A stretch of DNA of 64,000 nt from Thalassospira lucentensis (GTDB lineage Bacteria > Pseudomonadota > Alphaproteobacteria > Rhodospirillales > Thalassospiraceae): NCBI RefSeq assembly GCF_001613805.1, contig NZ_LPVY01000008.1, positions 62,001 to 126,000 of the forward strand. Reading direction: 5' to 3'. Both the position numbers and the translations under genes were made by a program. The stretch's first letter is position 1; each line of letters begins with the position of its first letter. A model generated the notes under the pieces. The model had not been told where the DNA came from. It ran no database searches and saw only the letters and a program-made list of their open reading frames with translations. Shown here piece after piece: positions 7,579 to 51,136 of this stretch.

Positions 7579-8610
7579 ATGGGTAACATCATTCTGTCGC
7601 CGCTGAATAAACGCCGCATGGCAAATTTCCGGACGAACAGGCGTGGCTATTGGTCGTTGGTTGTTTTTGCGATCCTGTTTGTGATCTGTCTGGCTGCCGA
7701 ACTGGTGGCCAACGACAAACCGATATTTGTCAAATATGACGACAACTGGTACGTCCCGATCCTGTCAGATCATCCCGAAACTGCCTATGGCGGGGATTTT
7801 GACGTCGAAACGGATTTCTACGATCCCTATATCCTTGGCAAGATCGAAGAACATGGTTTCGCCATCTGGCCACCAATCCCGTTTTCCTACAACACCATTG
7901 ATTTCGAAATGCGCGAGGCACAGCCGGCCCCGCCATCATTCCGTCATTGGCTGGGAACAGATGACCTTGGGCGTGACGTGCTGGCGCGTCTGATTTACGG
8001 GTTCCGGATATCGATCCTGTTTGGTCTTGCCCTGACCGCGATCAGTTCGGTGATCGGGATCGCGGCTGGTGCGGTGCAGGGTTATTTCGGCGGCTGGGTC
8101 GATCTTGGTTTCCAGCGTGTGATCGAAATCTGGGCCGGATTGCCGCAGTTGTTCATCCTGATCATTCTGGCCAGCCTGTTTGCGCCGGGTTTCTGGACGC
8201 TTTTGTTCATTCTTGTGCTGTTTAGCTGGATGAGTTTGACGGGTCTTGTGCGTGCAGAATTCCTGCGGGCACGTAATTTTGAATATGTTCGGGCCGCGCG
8301 TGCATTGGGCATGACCGACTATCGCATCATGTATCGTCATGTGCTGCCAAACGCGATGGTGGCGACGATTACATTCCTGCCGTTTGTATTGAACGGTTCG
8401 ATTGTGGCGCTGACATCGCTTGATTTCCTTGGGCTTGGCATGCCACCAGGCTCGCCGTCGCTTGGTGAATTGCTTGCGCAGGGAAAAAATAACCTTCAGG
8501 CACCGTGGCTTGGCATGACGGCGTTCTTTGCGATTGCCCTCATGCTGAGCCTTCTGATCTTTATCGGCGAGGCGGTGCGTGATGCCTTTGATCCGCGCAA
8601 GACATTTTAA
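7579..8610 (+). CDS. yejE: Oligopeptide ABC transporter permease YejE
   Basis: This 343-residue permease is of the DppC/OppC class: an N-terminal cytoplasmic segment (LSPLNKRRMANFRTNRRGYWSL), one helix, a large periplasmic loop typical of YejE (about residues 45-130, ending FRHWLGTDDLGRDVLARLIYG), then five helices with the EAA motif ARALGMTDYRIMYRHVLPNA. The yejB stop is at 7574-7576; ATG at 7579 is taken over a TTG at 7573. It pairs with YejB in the membrane, and yejF follows 11 bp downstream. Confidence 0.95.
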   Translation: MGNIILSPLNKRRMANFRTNRRGYWSLVVFAILFVICLAAELVANDKPIFVKYDDNWYVPILSDHPETAYGGDFDVETDFYDPYILGKIEEHGFAIWPPIPFSYNTIDFEMREAQPAPPSFRHWLGTDDLGRDVLARLIYGFRISILFGLALTAISSVIGIAAGAVQGYFGGWVDLGFQRVIEIWAGLPQLFILIILASLFAPGFWTLLFILVLFSWMSLTGLVRAEFLRARNFEYVRAARALGMTDYRIMYRHVLPNAMVATITFLPFVLNGSIVALTSLDFLGLGMPPGSPSLGELLAQGKNNLQAPWLGMTAFFAIALMLSLLIFIGEAVRDAFDPRKTF

Positions 8611-8621
8611 AGGAAACGGTT

Positions 8622-10256
8622 ATGACGACCAATCAATCGACACAGCCGCTTCTTGAGGTAAAGGACCTTTCGGCGAGCTTTGCCGGGGTTCCGGCGATCA
8701 CGGGTGTTTCGTTTGCCATGAAGCGCGGCGAGACGATGGCGCTTGTTGGCGAAAGCGGATCGGGTAAATCGGTGACCGCACTTTCGATCCTGCAATTGCT
8801 GCCCTATCCGCGGGCAAGCCATCCGGGCGGTTCGATCATCTTTGACGGGCAGGAAATGATCGGCACGGATGCGAAAATCCTGCGCAAGATTCGGGGAAAC
8901 CGGATCGCGATGATTTTCCAGGAGCCGATGACATCGTTAAATCCGCTGCATAATATTGAAAAGCAGATCGGGGAAGTGTTGCTGCTTCATAAGGGGCTTC
9001 GCGGACGCAAGGCGCGGGAACGCATTCTTGAACTGCTTGATCTGGTGGGTATTCCCGATCCGGCGTCGCGATTGAAGGCATTGCCCCATGAATTATCGGG
9101 CGGGCAGCGCCAGCGGGTAATGATTGCGATGGCACTGGCGAACGAACCCGAATTGCTAATTGCCGACGAGCCGACCACGGCGCTTGATGTGACCATTCAG
9201 GCGCAAATCCTTGAGTTGCTAAAAGAGCTGCAGTCCAAGCTTGGTATGGCATTGCTGCTGATTACCCACGATCTTCAGATCGTGCAGAAAATGGCCGACA
9301 ATGTTTGCGTGATGAAGGATGGCGAGGTGGTCGAGCGCGGCACGGGCTGCGGGCTTTTTGACAATCCGCAGCATCCCTATACCCAAAAGCTTCTGGCGGC
9401 AGTGCCAAGTGGCAATGCGCCACCTTTGCCCGACAATGCACAGGAGCTGATCCGGACAAATGACATTCTGGTACGGTTCCCGATTGGCAAGAAGGGGCTG
9501 CTTGGCCGCCCGGAATATTACCTTAATGCGGTCGATCATATTTCGCTTAGCCTGAAACAGGGCGAAACATTGGGCATTGTTGGCGAAAGTGGATCGGGGA
9601 AGACGACACTTGCGATGGCGATCCTGCGTCTGCTGTCATCGACCGGCGATATTCGATTTGATGGTAAAGATGTCCGGCAATTTTCCGGGGGTGATTTGCG
9701 CGCATTACGTCGCGACATGCAGGTAGTGTTTCAGGATCCGTTCGGATCCCTGAGCCCGCGTATGTCGATCAGCCAGATCGTCGGCGAAGGGCTTGAAATC
9801 CATAACCCGGAAATGTCCCGGCAGGAACGCACTGAACGCATTGCCGAGGCGTTGCGCGAAGTCGATTTGCCGGTGAACGCAATGGATCGTTATCCGCATG
9901 AGTTTTCTGGCGGGCAGCGCCAGCGCATATCCATTGCGCGTGCACTGGTCTTAAAACCGCGTTTCATGGTTCTTGATGAACCGACATCGGCACTCGATAT
10001 GTCGGTACAGGCACAGATTGTCGAACTTTTGCGTGATCTTCAGGCGCGCCACAAGATGGCCTATCTGTTTATCAGCCATGACCTTCGTGTGGTGCGCGCT
10101 CTGTCGCATCGGGTGATGGTGATGAAGGGCGGGCGGCTTGTCGAAAGCGGAAATGCCGACGAAGTCTTTGAAAATCCGAAGGAATCCTATACAAAGGCAT
10201 TGTTGGCTGCGGCACTTGATTTGCGTGCAGCCGGGTCGGAGTTCGTGCAAAGCTAA
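8622..10256 (+). CDS. yejF: Dual-domain ABC ATPase YejF
   Basis: A single 544-residue chain carries two complete ABC ATPase domains. Domain 1 has Walker A GESGSGKS (43-50), signature LSGGQRQRV and Walker B LLIADEP. Domain 2 has Walker A GESGSGKT (about 320-327), signature FSGGQRQRI and Walker B FMVLDEP. Each is followed by an oligopeptide-transporter C-terminal motif ([15 protein letters not shown] in the first). One fused protein doing the work of a DppD/DppF pair is the YejF arrangement. It powers YejABE at the cytoplasmic face and is the last gene of the operon; no clear terminator follows. Confidence 0.95.
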
Positions 10257-10336
10257 GTCCGAAGGGAACCTGACAATGGCTAACCGCGTTCGTCGGGCAA
10301 TGCCATGGTACAATTACGGGCTGGAAGCGAGTGTTC

Positions 10337-11026
10337 ATGACCGAACCGGGAAAAAACCCGAAAGGATTCAGGAACTGGCTTGTCATGCCGCTGTCGGCGG
10401 TATCGATGGGGTTGATGTTGCTGCTGGCATCAGACGCGCATGCGTCTGGTGGCGGACATGGCGGGGACGCCACATCCGAGAGCAGTGGGCCAAAGGAACC
10501 CGAGATTCCCGAAACGGTAATCCAGTCGGATTCAATTGCACTGACCGTGGTTTTGCCAAAGGTCGGTGCAATCCGGCAGATGGTGTTTCACGTTTGGCTG
10601 GAGGCGTCGTCGGTGGCGGACCGTGCCATCCTCGAACAGGCTGAGCCCAAACTACAGAACGCATTTCTGCGTGATCTTCAGCGCATCATGTATCGTGATA
10701 CCCAGAACCGGTATGACAAGCTCGAAGCAGGCAAACGTGGCTTTGTCTATAACGGGCCAGAACTGATCGCGCCGCCACCGCCCAAAACGCCAGAAGAACT
10801 CGAAGCGGAAAAAGAAGCGGCCGAAGCGGCGAAGGAAAATGGTGAGGAAATCAAATCCGAACCACCATTCTCTCCATTTCCGCCAACGACCAATCGCTAT
10901 TTTGCCGCTCTTCAGAACCGGCTTTTATCGACCGCACGGGGCATTGTGCCACCAGAAGCCATCCGCTCGGTCCAGGTGCGCAAGTTCTATGACAATTGGC
11001 CAGGTGATAAAAAGCCTGGGCGGTGA
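10337..11026 (+). CDS. Exported or membrane-anchored protein, weakly FliL-like
   Basis: This protein of about 229 residues has a basic N-terminus, one hydrophobic segment (WLVMPLSAVSMGLMLLLASDAHA) that could be a signal peptide or anchor, then a Gly/His/Ser-rich linker. A domain with TVVLPKVGAIRQMVFHVWLEAS and AEPKLQNAFLRDLQRIMY loosely resembles the periplasmic domain of FliL. A Pro- and Glu/Ala-rich low-complexity stretch (PPPPKTPEELEAEKEAAEAAKENGEE) interrupts it. FliL identity is a guess; no flagellar genes are near. ATG at 10337 is preferred to the GTG at 10331. It follows yejF by 80 bp and could be read through from it. Confidence 0.7.
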   Translation: MTEPGKNPKGFRNWLVMPLSAVSMGLMLLLASDAHASGGGHGGDATSESSGPKEPEIPETVIQSDSIALTVVLPKVGAIRQMVFHVWLEASSVADRAILEQAEPKLQNAFLRDLQRIMYRDTQNRYDKLEAGKRGFVYNGPELIAPPPPKTPEELEAEKEAAEAAKENGEEIKSEPPFSPFPPTTNRYFAALQNRLLSTARGIVPPEAIRSVQVRKFYDNWPGDKKPGR

Positions 11027-11120
11027 GACGTTCCTGCAAATCCTGTGCATGCCTTGTGGCCGCTTGCCATATGATTTGTCTCCCCATTCCTGAACGATCC
11101 TTTGCGGATTGGTCCATTCC

Positions 11121-11150
11121 CATACAACGCGTTTTGAAACGGGTTGTATG
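11121..11150. promoter_or_regulatory. 30-bp near-perfect palindrome upstream of LysE exporter
   Basis: CATACAAC at the left edge and GTTGTATG at the right are exact reverse complements, and the inner CGTTT/AAACG also pair. Thirteen of fifteen symmetric positions match and there is no loop. It lies 121 bp before the LysE-family start. Lack of a T-run argues against a terminator; symmetry at the DNA level suggests a dimeric repressor or activator site. Confidence 0.5.
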
Positions 11151-11270
11151 CGGCAGGGGCGGTGACTCCCTGTGCACTTGGTCTGTGGATGCCAGCCGTG
11201 CGCAGAGTGCACTTGTTCGAGGGCTTGAGCGTGATATTCCGAGGGCGTTTGATGTGACCCGGGGATTGAA

Positions 11271-11939
11271 ATGCCGATTGAAACATGGCTCAGCTTTTGC
11301 GCACTGGTATCACTTATGGTGGCGACACCGGGTCCAAGTGTTCTGATCGGGATGTCGCATTCGTTGCGTTATGGTCCTCGCCCGACAATGATTACGGCAC
11401 TTGGCGATGTGACCGCCAACATGATCCAGATGGTGATTGCCGCAGTTGGTCTGGGGGCGTTGCTTGCGACTTCGGCGACGGCGTTTGGTGTTGTCAAATG
11501 GTGCGGTGTTGCTTTCCTGTTTGTTATCGGCGTGACAGCGATCCTGCGCAAATCCAGGGCAGGAAATGATAGTAACGATATCGAAATGAATTCAGCGTCG
11601 GGATTTGAGCCTGTGTGCAAGCGTCGCCTGTTCAGCGAAGGCTTCCTTGTCGCAGCCGGCAACCCGAAAGCGATTGCTTTTTTCGGAGCACTGTTTCCGC
11701 AATTCATCAATCCGTCGGCGGAACTTTTGCCGCAGTTGATGATTCTTGGAACCACCTTTGTGATTTTTGATTACACATTCGTAATGATATATGCGATGGG
11801 TGCCGCCCGTCTGATGCCCTGGCTGATAAAACGCGGTGGGAAAAACACAATTGGCCGTGTTAGCGGCGGTGTTTTGATTGTTGCAGCCCTGCTTTTGTCC
11901 TTGATTGACATGCCGGAAAGCATTGCCAAAACCCGTTAA
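11271..11939 (+). CDS. LysE/RhtB family amino-acid exporter
   Basis: This 222-residue membrane protein has about six helices and the LysE signature near the N-terminus (ATPGPSVLIGMSHSLRYGPR) followed by ALGDVTANMIQM. The mid-region GFLVAAGNPKAIAFFGALFPQFI is the conserved second half motif of RhtB exporters. It should export an amino acid or a related small metabolite across the inner membrane; the substrate is not readable. ATG at 11271 follows GGGGATTGAA. A long palindrome at 11121-11150 lies upstream. The gene stands alone. Confidence 0.9.
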   Translation: MPIETWLSFCALVSLMVATPGPSVLIGMSHSLRYGPRPTMITALGDVTANMIQMVIAAVGLGALLATSATAFGVVKWCGVAFLFVIGVTAILRKSRAGNDSNDIEMNSASGFEPVCKRRLFSEGFLVAAGNPKAIAFFGALFPQFINPSAELLPQLMILGTTFVIFDYTFVMIYAMGAARLMPWLIKRGGKNTIGRVSGGVLIVAALLLSLIDMPESIAKTR

Positions 11940-45208: not shown

Positions 45209-45778
45209 ATGACGACACTTTCAAAGCTTTCCCGAACTTTCGCAGCCGCGACCCTGCTGGTTTGTGGGCTGTTTATGCTCAGTGCTGCATCTGCAACGGC
45301 ACAGATTGCGTGCCCGGTCGGCACGATCACAAATGCCGGCCTGCCCGACATCAATGGCGACCATGTTTTCTGTGGTGAGATTAATGGCAAAGGCAAAGCT
45401 GTCGGTTTCCACTCCCGCCCCGGAGGAAATAATCCTGCGGGTGGGGGGATTACGAATGTTGTGATCACCCAGACAGCGAACCCGATGGGAATTTACAACA
45501 TATCCTTCGATAAGAACGGGGTTCCGAAATCGATTTCTACCATGTTCCCCGATAGCTGTTCCCAGGATGAGGTTGTGAACTCCATCCTTTATGCTGAAGC
45601 CAATCAGGAAGCATGTCCGACCGGAGCACCCGGTTGGGTGGTGTGCGGAAAAAACCGACCCGATCCGGTGTTGGCGACACAGGGGCCGTATTGTGAAGGT
45701 GCTGACGATTCAAACCGTTTCTATATTGCGGTAGGGGTCAATGGTGGAAACATCAACACCGCGTTCCCGCTGCGTTAA
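45209..45778 (+). CDS. Secreted EndoU-type RNase (candidate toxin)
   Basis: This 189-residue protein has a clear signal peptide (FAAATLLVCGLFMLSAASATAQ) with cleavage at about residue 31. The mature part matches bacterial EndoU nucleases: DHVFCGEINGKGKAVGFHS (His52 and His68, 16 apart), PKSISTMFPDSC (Lys107) and a C-terminal NINTAFP. His-His-Lys is the EndoU catalytic triad known from toxin domains of contact-dependent inhibition systems. Six cysteines in the exported part suggest disulphides. Here the domain stands alone on an exported protein rather than at the end of a giant CdiA. Shine-Dalgarno AGGAGG. A small acidic gene follows at 22 bp. Confidence 0.8.
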   Translation: MTTLSKLSRTFAAATLLVCGLFMLSAASATAQIACPVGTITNAGLPDINGDHVFCGEINGKGKAVGFHSRPGGNNPAGGGITNVVITQTANPMGIYNISFDKNGVPKSISTMFPDSCSQDEVVNSILYAEANQEACPTGAPGWVVCGKNRPDPVLATQGPYCEGADDSNRFYIAVGVNGGNINTAFPLR

Positions 45779-45800
45779 CCGTGAAATGTGAGGTTTGAAA

Positions 45801-46133
45801 ATGGCAGGCGGTGAAATGATGGTGCCCGATTGGCCCGGCAGGATTGTTGGCGACGAAGGGCATGATCGCATCGCCGCCTGTCTTGTTATGGATATTCAGA
45901 ATGCACCGGAATGGGCGCAGATCGTGCTTGATCGGGTCGATGCCGTTATCAATGGCGACGAAGGCCATTGGGAGATGGCAATGAATGCCTATATTTTAAA
46001 AGTGGACCCGGCCATTTGTGAAATTGCTCCGGCATATGAAGAGCAGGGCGAGGAGATTGTCTGGGTGCCGTCTTCGGAATTTCGTGCAGCACTGGTCGCA
46101 TGGATAAAACAGATGGATAAATCAACGGGTTAA
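45801..46133 (+). CDS. Small acidic protein, candidate EndoU immunity partner
   Basis: This 110-residue, clearly acidic protein has no signal peptide. It has DWPGRIVGDEGHDRIAACLVMDIQNAPEWAQIVLDRVDAV, then HWEMAMNAYILKVDPAICEIAPAY and a C-terminal helix SSEFRAALVAWIKQMDK. The arrangement loosely recalls YacL/UPF0231-type small folds that recur among immunity proteins; I do not claim family membership. It starts 22 bp after the EndoU stop with its own GAGG site, the usual toxin-immunity order. Immunity is inferred from position, size and charge only. Confidence 0.65.
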   Translation: MAGGEMMVPDWPGRIVGDEGHDRIAACLVMDIQNAPEWAQIVLDRVDAVINGDEGHWEMAMNAYILKVDPAICEIAPAYEEQGEEIVWVPSSEFRAALVAWIKQMDKSTG

Positions 46134-47459: not shown

Positions 47460-47467
47460 TTTTGCGC

Positions 47468-47926
47468 ATGGAAAACAATGATCCCGATACCCCTTATCTG
47501 AGCCTTGGAAGCACGTTGATGCGTGTCGCACGCTGTTGGCGGCGCGAGATTGACCGCACATTGCAGTCGCATGGGCTGTCTCAAACCACGGTGATGCCCC
47601 TGATTGTTCTCAATCGGGCAGCCGGTCCGGTGCGGCAAGGTTTGATCGCAGATGAGATCGGTGTTGAAGGCCCATCGCTTGTGCGGGTTATTGATGCACT
47701 GGAACGCGATGGGCTCATTTCGCGGGTATGCGATCTGAGCGACCGGCGTGCCAAACTGGTTGCGCTGACGGCAGCAGGCAAAGACAAAGCCGCCGAGATC
47801 GAAGTCATTCTTGCCGATATCCGCAACGAACTGACGGCTGATATCGACCCCGAAAATCTTGCGACCACGCTTGATGTCATGCAGCAATTGCTTGGCAAGC
47901 TGGCGCAACGCGACAGCGAAGCTTAG
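47468..47926 (+). CDS. MarR family regulator of the downstream efflux operon
   Basis: This 152-residue MarR protein has helix-turn-helix region GLIADEIGVEGPSLVRVIDALERDGLISRV and wing CDLSDRRAKLVALTAAG, flanked by dimerisation helices (N-terminal LGSTLMRVARCWRREIDRTLQSHGLSQT). Such regulators are released by phenolic or aromatic ligands. It is the first gene of a four-gene operon with FUSC, DUF1656 and HlyD genes (14 bp to the next). The promoter contains two nested inverted repeats around a TATAAT, so it is probably autoregulated. Confidence 0.93.
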   Translation: MENNDPDTPYLSLGSTLMRVARCWRREIDRTLQSHGLSQTTVMPLIVLNRAAGPVRQGLIADEIGVEGPSLVRVIDALERDGLISRVCDLSDRRAKLVALTAAGKDKAAEIEVILADIRNELTADIDPENLATTLDVMQQLLGKLAQRDSEA

Positions 47927-47940
47927 AGGAGGGGGACAAG

Positions 47941-50034
47941 ATGTTTGCAAATGTTCTTGCCCTGCGTCCCAAAGGTGCTGACTGGCTGTTTTCGGCAAAA
48001 ACGTTTGCTGCTGCGGTTCTTGCATTGTTCATTGCGCTGGCATTTGATCTTGATCGGCCTGTCTGGGCGATGGCAACGGTCTATATCGTTGCCCATCCTT
48101 TGTCCGGTGTTCTGGCGTCCAAGGCGATTTATCGTGTGATCGGAACGATCATTGGGGCGGTTGCGGCGATTGTAATGGTGCCCAATCTTGTGAATGCGCC
48201 GGTTTTGCTTTCGCTTGCGCTCGCTCTTTGGGTTGGTGGCTGTCTTTATCTATCGCGGCTGGATCGAACGCCCAAAAGCTATCTTTTCATGCTGGCAGGT
48301 TATACCGCGGCTATTGTCGGTTTTCCCTGTGTCACCGACCCCGGGCTGATATTTGATACGGCGGTTGCCCGTGTGCAGGAAATTTCCCTTGGCATTATCT
48401 GCGCCACACTGGTCAGTCATATCATTTTTCCACGCCATGTCGGGCCGGTCATTGCGGCACGGATTGATGGCTGGATGGGGGATGTCGCCGAACTGGCACA
48501 GCTAAGTTTTGATGCCGGTTCTGATCCTGAAAAATTGCATCAGGACCGGACACGCATCGCGGCAGATATTGGTGAATTGCACGGGCTTTCTGTTCATCTG
48601 GGATATGAAAAGTCCCGATTTGCTGGGCGAACCCGCCAATTGCAGGCCCTGCAAAGCGCGATAGCCGCTCTTTTGCCTGTGTTTTTCGCCGTTCATGACA
48701 GAATAACAGCGCTTGTCGATTACAGTGGGAGCGTCCCCAAAGATTTGCGGGCCATTCTCGATGATGTTGCGATCCATATGGCAACCGGCCACTACGATGG
48801 ATCGTCAGCGCAGGCGCTTCATACGCGAATTGCCGCATATGGTGCCGAGTTCTCGAATGCATCGGAATGGGATGGCTTGTTGCAGCTTAATCTTTGTAAT
48901 CGTCTGCATCGGCTTTTGAATTTTTATTCAGATTGCTGCCGGTTGTGGGATGGGTTGCGTGTCGACAATGTTCCAGCCGACGTCGTGGATCGCTGGCGTG
49001 ATAGTGCGCAGGAGCGGGCTTTGCATCGCGATTACGGTGTTGCGTTCCGGTCCGGCCTGACGGCGGTGATTGCAACCTTGCTTGTGTGCGGTTTCTGGAT
49101 CATGACGGCATGGCCTGCGGGTGGGACGGCGGCGATGATGGCAGCAGTCGGTGCCAGTATCATGTCGTTCCTTGATAATCCCGTTCCGGCCTTAAAGGGC
49201 TTCATCCGTTATACTGCGATGGCAATTGTTGCAGTGATTATCTACAGCCTTGCGATTTTGCCCGCTATCGATGGTTTCCCGCTCCTTGTGATGGCGTTTG
49301 CGCCCTATTTCCTTTTGCTGGGAGTGTTGATGACTTCGCCGCAGACCTATGGGTTTGCTCTGGCGATGCTGGTCAATGTTGTGATGATCCTGAATGTCGA
49401 TACCAGTTACAGCAGCGATTTTGCGACTTTGCTTGATGGCGGAATTGCTTCTCTTGCCGGTTTTGCAGTTGCCGCGGTCGTGACGGCTTTTGTCCGTAGC
49501 GTGACGGTAGATGACAGTATCCGGCGTCTGGTGATGTCGAACTGGCGCGATATCAGTGCAATCGCGCGCGGGACGGTCAGCTTGCCACGGATGGTTATGG
49601 TCCGTCGCCTGCTGGATCGGCAGGGATTGATTTTGCCGAGGCTGGCACTCGCACCGGACCATCGCGACACCCTGATCCGCGCAATGCCCGAGGTTTCAAT
49701 CGCGGCCAGCATTTATGACCTGCGTCGTTTCAAGGGGCTGGCGGATCGGCGCATCGTAGCAAAGCTTGATGGCGTTTTGCGTAACATGGCCCGACATTTC
49801 GATAATCGTCGTCATGACTTCTCCGCACTGCCCGATCCGCTGATCGTTGAAGAAGTCGACGATATCCTGCGCGACGTGGTGGCGATTTCGCCCTCACCAT
49901 TGCGTGGTAAATTGCTGATCCCTTTGATTGCACTGCGTCGTGCCTTGTCACGGACCGGTGCGCCAATGCTGGATCGCCCGGCAGAAAAGGCACTTGTGCC
50001 TGACCTGCCACCCCTGATGGGAGAAACCGCATGA
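47941..50034 (+). CDS. FUSC/AaeB-like efflux pump subunit
   Basis: This 697-residue inner-membrane protein of the fusaric acid resistance/aromatic acid efflux family has two hydrophobic blocks (about 15-165 and 360-515), each with about five or six helices, separated and followed by cytoplasmic helical domains. The first block begins LFSAKTFAAAVLALFIALAFDLDRPVWAMATVYIVAHPLSG, the family's conserved start. AaeB-type pumps expel aromatic carboxylic acids with AaeA. Strong GGAGGGGG Shine-Dalgarno. Its stop overlaps the next ATG by 4 bp. Confidence 0.92.
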   Translation: MFANVLALRPKGADWLFSAKTFAAAVLALFIALAFDLDRPVWAMATVYIVAHPLSGVLASKAIYRVIGTIIGAVAAIVMVPNLVNAPVLLSLALALWVGGCLYLSRLDRTPKSYLFMLAGYTAAIVGFPCVTDPGLIFDTAVARVQEISLGIICATLVSHIIFPRHVGPVIAARIDGWMGDVAELAQLSFDAGSDPEKLHQDRTRIAADIGELHGLSVHLGYEKSRFAGRTRQLQALQSAIAALLPVFFAVHDRITALVDYSGSVPKDLRAILDDVAIHMATGHYDGSSAQALHTRIAAYGAEFSNASEWDGLLQLNLCNRLHRLLNFYSDCCRLWDGLRVDNVPADVVDRWRDSAQERALHRDYGVAFRSGLTAVIATLLVCGFWIMTAWPAGGTAAMMAAVGASIMSFLDNPVPALKGFIRYTAMAIVAVIIYSLAILPAIDGFPLLVMAFAPYFLLLGVLMTSPQTYGFALAMLVNVVMILNVDTSYSSDFATLLDGGIASLAGFAVAAVVTAFVRSVTVDDSIRRLVMSNWRDISAIARGTVSLPRMVMVRRLLDRQGLILPRLALAPDHRDTLIRAMPEVSIAASIYDLRRFKGLADRRIVAKLDGVLRNMARHFDNRRHDFSALPDPLIVEEVDDILRDVVAISPSPLRGKLLIPLIALRRALSRTGAPMLDRPAEKALVPDLPPLMGETA

Positions 50035-50234
50035 TCAATCCGACGATCGATATTTATGGCGTGTTTGTACCCGCCTTTCTGATGATGGCGCTTGGCGCCT
50101 GGTTCTGCCTGAAAGTGCTGCATGTTGGTCTTGCACGGATCGGTTTTTACAAGATAACCGCGCATCCTGCTTTGACGGATCTGGCCCTGTTCGTGCTGAT
50201 CCTGACCGCACTTTCGGGATTACTTGTTCAATAG
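50031..50234 (+). CDS. DUF1656 (AaeX-like) small membrane protein
   Basis: This 67-residue protein has two membrane helices (IDIYGVFVPAFLMMALGAWFCL and LTDLALFVLILTALSGLLV) around a short basic loop. It has the length and position of AaeX in aaeXAB-type operons; the function is unknown but it is consistently paired with this pump. ATGA overlap with the FUSC gene; the HlyD gene follows 8 bp downstream. Confidence 0.93.
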   Translation: MINPTIDIYGVFVPAFLMMALGAWFCLKVLHVGLARIGFYKITAHPALTDLALFVLILTALSGLLVQ

Positions 50235-50242
50235 GTGACGAT

Positions 50243-51136
50243 ATGAAACCGACTTTTGCCAATTTTCTCCGTGTTTTGATGACGCTTGTTCTTGTTCTGG
50301 CGGCATCGGCTGGCGGTTATCAGCTGTATGATTACTATATGAATTCTCCTTGGACGCGAGATGGCCGGGTTAGTGCCGATGTCGTTGCGATTGCGCCGGA
50401 TATCGCTGGTCTGGTCAGTGAGGTGCATGTTACCGATAACCAGATTGTTCACGCCGGGGATTTGCTGTTTTCCATTGATCCCGCCCGTTATCAGGTGGCC
50501 GTTGATCAGGCACAGGCGAAGCTTGAAAGTACCATCGCCGCACGGGATCAGGCCCAGCGTGAAATGAAACGCTACAAGGGGCTTGATAGCGACGTTGTGT
50601 CGCGCCAGAAAAAAGAACAGGTTGCAACCAACCTTGCGACCGCACAGGCAGATATGGATCTGGCCAAGGCCGATCTTGACCTTGCGGTTTTGAATTTGGC
50701 GCGTACCAAGGTTGTTGCCCCGGTGGATGGCATCCTGACAAATTTCTCGTTGCGTCGGGGAAACTATGTTGGTGCAGGGCAGGCGATTGCTGCTCTGGTC
50801 GATAGCCAGTCATTCTATGTCGCTGGTTATTTCGAGGAAACCAAACTGCCGCGTATCGCAGTCGGCGATCAGGTCGAAGTCCGTCTGATGGGTGAAGATG
50901 ACGCTATTTATGGTCATGTGGTCAGCATTGCGGGTGGCATTCAGGATAGTGAACGGTCGGGTGCAGGCGGAAACCTTGCAAATGTCAAACCGACCTTTAG
51001 CTGGGTCCGTCTGGCGCAGCGCGTACCTGTGCGCGTTTCGCTTGATAACGTCCCTGAAAATGTCCGGTTGGTTGCTGGGCGTAGTGCGACGGTGACGGTG
51101 ATGGGGGCACGTGGTGCCACTTTCCCGAACCTTTGA
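50243..51136 (+). CDS. HlyD/AaeA family membrane fusion protein
   Basis: This 297-residue periplasmic adaptor has an N-terminal anchor (LMTLVLVLAASAGGYQLYDYYM), then NSPWTRDGRVSADVVAIAPDIAGLVSEVHVTDNQIVHAGD, the lipoyl half typical of AaeA/EmrA proteins. A helical hairpin (about 80-150), the second lipoyl half (VVAPVDGILTNFSLRRGNYV) and a beta-barrel with FYVAGYFEETKL follow. It couples the FUSC pump to an outer-membrane factor encoded elsewhere. Last gene of the MarR operon. Confidence 0.93.
   Translation: MKPTFANFLRVLMTLVLVLAASAGGYQLYDYYMNSPWTRDGRVSADVVAIAPDIAGLVSEVHVTDNQIVHAGDLLFSIDPARYQVAVDQAQAKLESTIAARDQAQREMKRYKGLDSDVVSRQKKEQVATNLATAQADMDLAKADLDLAVLNLARTKVVAPVDGILTNFSLRRGNYVGAGQAIAALVDSQSFYVAGYFEETKLPRIAVGDQVEVRLMGEDDAIYGHVVSIAGGIQDSERSGAGGNLANVKPTFSWVRLAQRVPVRVSLDNVPENVRLVAGRSATVTVMGARGATFPNL

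Follow-up and report, generated by a model that had tools for sequence, protein, structure and literature searches.

A predicted Sec-exported single-domain EndoU nuclease and a small acidic partner as a candidate toxin–immunity operon in Thalassospira lucentensis

Positions 45209–46133 of the window, the whole 64,000-nucleotide stretch of DNA analysed here, probably hold a two-gene toxin–immunity (TI) operon in which a Sec-exported EndoU nuclease, P0001, is paired with a cytosolic blocker, P0002, the pair being polymorphic and used between related strains. Seen in the sequence are the EndoU domain, its predicted fold, the catalytic residues, the signal peptide, the pairing of the two genes, a partner family shared with other EndoU proteins and one cassette swap; from these we infer that P0001 cleaves RNA, is bound by P0002, is in fact exported and enters other cells, and that the pair has a competitive role. 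The features of the locus are the following.

45209..45778, + strand: P0001, predicted exported single-domain EndoU ribonuclease, 189 aa (PF14436, fold match, genus-wide relatives)
45209..45304, + strand: Sec signal peptide, about residues 1–32, cleavage near ATA-Q (by eye; helix 6–25 in the structure model)
45362..45364, + strand: catalytic His52 codon (invariant in 80/80 aligned rows)
45410..45412, + strand: catalytic His68 codon (invariant in 80/80 aligned rows)
45527..45529, + strand: probable catalytic Lys107 codon (K at 107 or 108 in 80/80 rows)
45536..45538, + strand: active-site Ser110 codon (79/80 rows; EndoU set H,H,[SNT],[SNT] in the excerpted text of PMC3482391)
45758..45760, + strand: active-site Thr184 codon, in the NTAFP motif (invariant in 80/80 aligned rows)
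45779..45800, + strand: 22-bp spacer with a ribosome-binding-like GTGAGG stretch (by eye)
45801..46133, + strand: P0002, acidic partner, 110 aa, proposed EndoU immunity protein and distant UPF0231/YacL relative (pairing, family profile)

P0001 matches the bacterial EndoU family of Pfam (PF14436, EndoU_bacteria) at 5e-17, with 62.9 bits against a curated cut-off of 25.3, and EndoU structures are the top-ranked matches of its predicted fold, a fold in which the catalytic residues are present. The original prediction, made from the letters alone, had read in this gene a signal peptide and an EndoU arrangement of His52, His68 and Lys107 with a C-terminal NTAFP. Both readings are borne out by the alignment of 80 EndoU rows (the window plus 79 loci, L164 left out), in which these positions are conserved as listed above and in which a hydrophobicity rule finds a hydrophobic N-terminus in every row; Lys107 of P0001 lies one residue before the position usual in relatives. 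Cysteines 35, 55, 117 and 162 are retained in 61 of the 80 rows and likely form disulfides outside the cytoplasm. P0001 consists of the signal peptide and the EndoU domain and nothing else: it has no delivery domain, neither its sequence nor Pfam gave any of the trafficking or pre-toxin domains of multidomain polymorphic toxins, and Pfam found no repeat, LXG or PAAR domain. A match to DnaK (E 0.05) and two NCBIfam rows (0.14 and 0.25) were judged to be chance.

The partner likewise answers to its initial description as a 110-residue acidic protein without a signal 22 bp downstream, with a computed pI of 4.2 and no N-terminal hydrophobic stretch. Acidity extends to the family, in which 62 of 70 rows have a computed pI under 6; a hydrophobic stretch within the first 50 residues occurs in 22 of these 70, P0002 not among them, and is mostly an internal segment preceding a conserved DIQ motif. 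P0002 alone has no significant match in Pfam, NCBIfam or PDB sequences, and its matches to cytochrome P450 (0.95) and DUF6600 (0.18), as well as that of the partner profile to RqcH (0.019), were judged to be chance. An identification of P0002 as a barstar was rejected, barstar being absent from the Pfam results for P0002 at E up to 10 and for the 70 members at E up to 1, and neither MafI nor CdiI is among the matches listed in the PDB sequence search. Both genes are conserved and show low dN/dS within the window's close clade, which speaks against chance ORFs.

Among 60 genomes searched, a relative of P0001 is found in all 28 of the same genus, and in the 27 other than the window's own it occupies the same slot, flanked by an AAA_14/DUF4143 ATPase gene and a beta-lactamase-family hydrolase gene. 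A relative of P0002 is found in 26 of the 28: it is the immediate next gene in 24 genomes, and in G019 and G027 inserted sequence lies between nuclease and partner. The same-genus search found no partner in G005 and G020, whose EndoU genes look intact and keep the catalytic residues. Survival thus does not strictly depend on the partner, which is what one would expect if export by itself separates the enzyme from the producer's RNA. The unlinked EndoU paralogues of G010, G026 and G027 have no partner, and G030 and G051 likewise show none.

Several further observations concern this slot and its surroundings. At about 8111–8180 the G005 locus (L083) keeps a short remnant of the partner gene, which runs in frame into the beginning of the hydrolase ORF downstream. 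The loci L090, L091 and L092 (G026, G027 and G010) hold a second, unlinked exported EndoU paralogue that lacks the cysteine-bearing insert. At L067 (G006; 8526–11589, numbered after turning the locus) the first partner copy is followed 2.3 kb further on by a second, divergent one of MGESLGG type, possibly an orphan immunity gene; a large minus-strand ORF lies between the two. After the slot, at 47462–51136 of the window, are genes for a MarR regulator, a FUSC exporter and an HlyD-type fusion protein, which are missing in several same-genus genomes (e.g. G008, G012 and G014) where the genes on either side are kept.

Beyond the genus, a scan of genome contigs with an 11-row alignment query, based on a GFHSRP-type and an HVFCGE-type motif, gave 83 confirmed EndoU relatives. 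The best 80 of these 83 were retained, a set biased to the two motifs used. It comprises 17 Thalassospira-type loci and 63 others, from Nitrosomonas and its relatives, cyanobacteria, Pseudomonas, Kiloniella, Granulosicoccus, Aliikangiella, Asaia, Acidobacteria and more, with genomic surroundings that vary among lineages. Because ORF calling was mechanical, some starts lie too far upstream; the EndoU ORFs span 166–356 aa, and for 10 partners the apparent overlap with the nuclease exceeds 10 bp. Partners were identified by a profile iterated from 27 Thalassospira seeds, which gave 55 matches in the first round and 70 in the final one. A partner ORF lies downstream on the same strand in 69 of the 80 loci kept (the best 80 of 83), that is in 17/17 of the Thalassospira-type loci and 52/63 of the others, at a distance of at most 282 bp in all 69 and at most 90 bp in 65 of them, with an exact 4-bp overlap of the two genes in 16 loci. 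Of 10,962 ORFs in the scan loci the final profile matched 70, namely those 69 and one second copy. Ten of the 80 loci have no partner (8 Granulosicoccus-type and 2 cyanobacterial), and one further locus without a visible partner is cut by the contig end. Two Chitinimonas loci carry mechanical ORFs of 62–63 aa in the gap between nuclease and partner.

Because these relatives are widespread and every aligned row has a hydrophobic N-terminus, the exported single-domain EndoU is a broad class and no oddity. The original prediction had presented a stand-alone exported EndoU as unusual for bacteria, a view that the 63 non-genus relatives of the scan (best 80 of 83) overturn. A lipobox-like N-terminus was noted in 5 of the 80 rows; by eye, L102, L115, L190, L198 and the Granulosicoccus loci have lipobox-like or membrane-anchor N-termini in place of a plain signal peptide, which suggests an envelope-anchored EndoU in these loci. 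As to mobile elements, tblastn of P0001 in phages gave no match at 1e-3, and the 7 plasmid records that it matched all carry an annotation as Priestia or Listeria LXG toxins; phage origin and plasmid spread were rejected.

An evenly drawn sample gives the same picture of co-occurrence. PF14436 was sought in 754 genome searches, 369 in the class of G352, a genome whose class and family we take to be Gammaproteobacteria, and 385 in the window's class. The 36 matches include 25 of exported type by profile, two of them from Thalassospira and one, in G352, the tip of an RHS protein. An adjacent partner accompanies 21 of the 25 exported-type EndoUs as opposed to none of the 11 others (Fisher 2.3e-6); the four exported-type EndoUs of this sample that lack one belong to G371, G1070 and two Granulosicoccus-type loci. 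In a phylum sample of 398 genomes, all six genomes with strong partner matches have an EndoU beside a copy. The expectation that the neighbour would recur beside homologues of the nuclease is thus answered consistently, in 26 of 28 genus genomes, 69 of 80 scan relatives and 21 of 25 exported-type EndoUs; the two other outcomes named as refuting the original prediction, a missing EndoU profile match and a fold lacking the triad, were likewise not observed.

The same partner also stands behind EndoU domains that travel by other routes. In G352, EndoU is preceded by an RHS core motif, recognised by eye, and the partner gene begins 7 bp downstream of EndoU. Used as the sole query in 178 genomes of its family, the G352 partner matched 7 genomes, G352 included, and 6 of these 7 have an ORF matching PF14436 immediately before the partner gene. 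RHS repeats are present in two of the proteins so encoded, one of them 1507 aa long with PAAR, and another, in G1283, has a gp5/VgrG-type domain confirmed by Pfam. The partner gene of G1157 (L232, 1627–2046), with no EndoU in the roughly 0.4 kb upstream to the contig end, is possibly an orphan immunity gene. Among plasmid records the G352 partner matched two of Proteus, and the one examined holds an orphan copy in an RHS region. The plasmid search also returned a gene 36.7% identical to the G352 partner, located 17 bp after a Streptomyces EndoU protein with a pre-toxin domain, and in Priestia an LXG toxin with EndoU has behind it a 112-aa protein that matches the partner profile (E 9e-12). A copy of the G352 RHS cassette in E. 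coli was considered and set aside, as no DNA match was obtained. The record NZ_OL790811.1 (L229), filed as a Proteus mirabilis plasmid, is 4.08 Mb long, a size that suggests a chromosome.

In polymorphic toxins the gene right after the toxin is typically the immunity gene, according to excerpts of PMC3482391 and PMC4287609. No argument for an inhibitor is stronger than the recurrence of the partner in this place across several delivery systems. With partners behind EndoU in RHS, VgrG-type, LXG and Streptomyces proteins, immunity is the best interpretation, and P0002 most likely blocks the EndoU nuclease. The gene order from which immunity had been proposed at the outset is thereby given a firmer footing, as it is by the cassette swap described below. 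The accompanying idea of a system outside known delivery machineries needs correction for the partner family, which also serves RHS, VgrG-type and LXG EndoUs; P0001 itself has no delivery domain.

Nuclease and partner can be replaced together. In one genome pair, Thalassospira sp. HJ (G003) and SP131 (G007, a MAG), identity is 94% in the ATPase gene and 92% in the signal-peptide region, drops to 52% in the mature EndoU and 58% in the spacer and partner, and returns to 100% in the 59 bp after the partner stop and 94% in the hydrolase gene. By this comparison the difference is a clear cassette swap of nuclease and partner with the signal peptide kept, and a constant leader with an exchangeable toxin/immunity cassette is found clearly in this one pair, other genome pairs showing looser forms of the pattern. 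In the tree, the HJ allele sits beside cyanobacterial and Nitrosomonas alleles and apart from most Thalassospira alleles (at a node without a support value). Given the low dN/dS in the window's close clade, replacement explains the divergence better than relaxed constraint. Distances of nuclease and partner correlate (r 0.85, 68 pairs, 0/1000 permutations), with a partial r of 0.64 within the genus given the flanking genes, the pairs not being independent; the correlation owes part of its strength to shared ancestry. The slot also looks like an insertion point for effectors: in G019 (L088, 8269–12480) EndoU and a partner copy are separated by two unnamed ORFs and by genes for a T6SS Tle1-like phospholipase and a DUF4123 protein. 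An apparent remnant of the first of these unnamed ORFs is visible by eye in G027.

In the proposed mechanism, P0001 would leave the cytoplasm via Sec and fold oxidatively outside, and its EndoU site would cleave RNA wherever the enzyme meets it. P0002 would remain in the cytoplasm, where it would bind and block the nuclease and so shield producer and kin alike against enzyme that has not left this compartment or has come back to it. Nuclease and partner would be exchanged jointly behind the kept signal peptide, as expected of an inter-strain weapon. The exported single domain would also have to enter another cell, the weakest step of the model.

Some of these data could also fit an enzyme of nutrition. 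P0001 might be a scavenging or envelope RNase that draws on environmental or periplasmic RNA as a nutrient, its partner guarding against unexported enzyme as barstar does, with no competition involved; we regard this as possible, though unlikely. A syntenic gene in 28/28 same-genus genomes searched, a single-domain EndoU without a delivery module, the low dN/dS and the survival of strains without a partner would all suit such a role, as would the lipobox-like rows and the apparent membrane anchoring of some relatives, and an operon of a secreted RNase and an intracellular inhibitor has a precedent in balifase–YrdF (excerpt of PMC5021464). However, nuclease and partner were swapped as a unit between kept flanks and an effector-type insertion occupies the G019 slot, which together favour inter-strain conflict over nutrient scavenging, and the partner family also serves RHS, VgrG-type and LXG EndoU proteins.

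The partner family has a distant connection that bears on a further alternative. UPF0231 (PF06062) is touched by 37 of the 70 partner members at E up to 1 (best 6.8e-10); scored singly, 7 of 10 hand-picked members and 2 of 3 RHS-associated partners pass its cut-off. P0002 itself shows no UPF0231 match, the Pfam cut-off not being passed, and is for this reason called a distant relative and not a UPF0231 member; the Priestia and Streptomyces partners show no UPF0231 match either. Aligned with four UPF0231 proteins by hhalign, the 70-row partner family scores 98.4% (8e-15) and a genus-only partner alignment 74.9% (2.6e-5). The four proteins match PF06062 at 4.6e-40 to 4.8e-28; since they came from the partner-profile search, the Pfam scans are the independent evidence. 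Taken together, the comparisons point, through relatives, to family-level homology between the partner family and UPF0231, although the YacL-type sequences encountered here extend further at the C-terminal side. E. coli YacL is described in the excerpt of PMC8196013 as a protein of unknown function that binds RNA polymerase and NusG near the DNA exit, as seen by crosslinks. In the open-access PMC literature we found nothing that links UPF0231/YacL with EndoU or an immunity protein and nothing that pairs EndoU with Thalassospira, and the name UPF0231 is absent from the YacL papers found there.

It is accordingly conceivable, if improbable, that the partner is a transcription- or export-related helper, either a YacL-like RNA polymerase binder or a secretion pilot, and no inhibitor. 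The distant UPF0231/YacL relation and the crosslinks of YacL to RNA polymerase and NusG (same excerpt of PMC8196013) are in keeping with this, as is the absence of any EndoU beside the weak, YacL-like matches in 14 of 14 genomes of the 398-genome phylum sample. Against a helper stand the immunity position of the partner after EndoU across Sec, RHS, VgrG-type, LXG and Streptomyces multidomain contexts and the orphan copy in an RHS region. An intracellular type II toxin–antitoxin (addiction) module, for which two small adjoining genes with an RNase domain and an acidic protein might speak, is hardly credible in view of the hydrophobic N-terminus in 80/80 rows, the cysteine pattern, the toxin-first order, the fixed chromosomal slot and the retention of the nuclease without a partner in G005 and G020.

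Should the toxin–immunity reading be true, EndoU toxins would gain a new immunity family, one that is found with its nuclease in Sec, T6SS-type and T7SS-type delivery alike, and marine and nitrifying bacteria would provide a two-gene system simple enough to serve as a model. It would also give UPF0231/YacL, whose role in E. coli is unknown, its first functional lead. A bolder version, which we consider rather doubtful, would make YacL a domesticated member of an immunity superfamily that guards nascent RNA from EndoU-type nucleases, and would make Sec-exported single-domain EndoUs widespread polymorphic toxins that act between related bacteria without a delivery domain and are neutralised by that superfamily.

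The closest known counterparts are barnase–barstar and balifase–YrdF, which likewise join a small exported RNase of the wider BECR fold group to a small intracellular partner. Balifase shares an operon with YrdF, which is a barstar ortholog (excerpt of PMC5021464), and simple barnase–barstar pairs are termed an incipient TI gene order (excerpt of PMC3482391). Unlike in these two systems, the enzyme here is a cysteine-bearing EndoU, the partner has no barstar match in Pfam and the alleles are swapped as a cassette. MafB–MafI of Neisseria likewise consists of an exported EndoU RNase protein with an immunity gene directly downstream (excerpt of PMC4287609), but in MafB EndoU is the C-terminal region of a larger protein, whereas in P0001 it stands alone. 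EndoU toxins delivered by RHS, LXG and CDI systems, such as the LXG protein BC_0920 and CdiA-CT STECO31 (excerpt of PMC9990079), share the Pfam domain of P0001. Some RHS, VgrG-type and LXG EndoU toxins have a P0002-type gene behind them, as here. For BC_0920, we take the partner to be BC_0921. The immunities given for Tox-EndoU in the excerpted text of PMC3482391 are SUKH, SuFu and Imm28, not UPF0231, and the P0002 family looks like a previously unnamed kind of EndoU immunity. As such, a toxin–immunity pair of barnase–barstar-like build is familiar, and what appears new against the excerpts of the cited papers is an exported single-domain EndoU, swapped as a cassette together with an immunity family that they do not list for EndoU.
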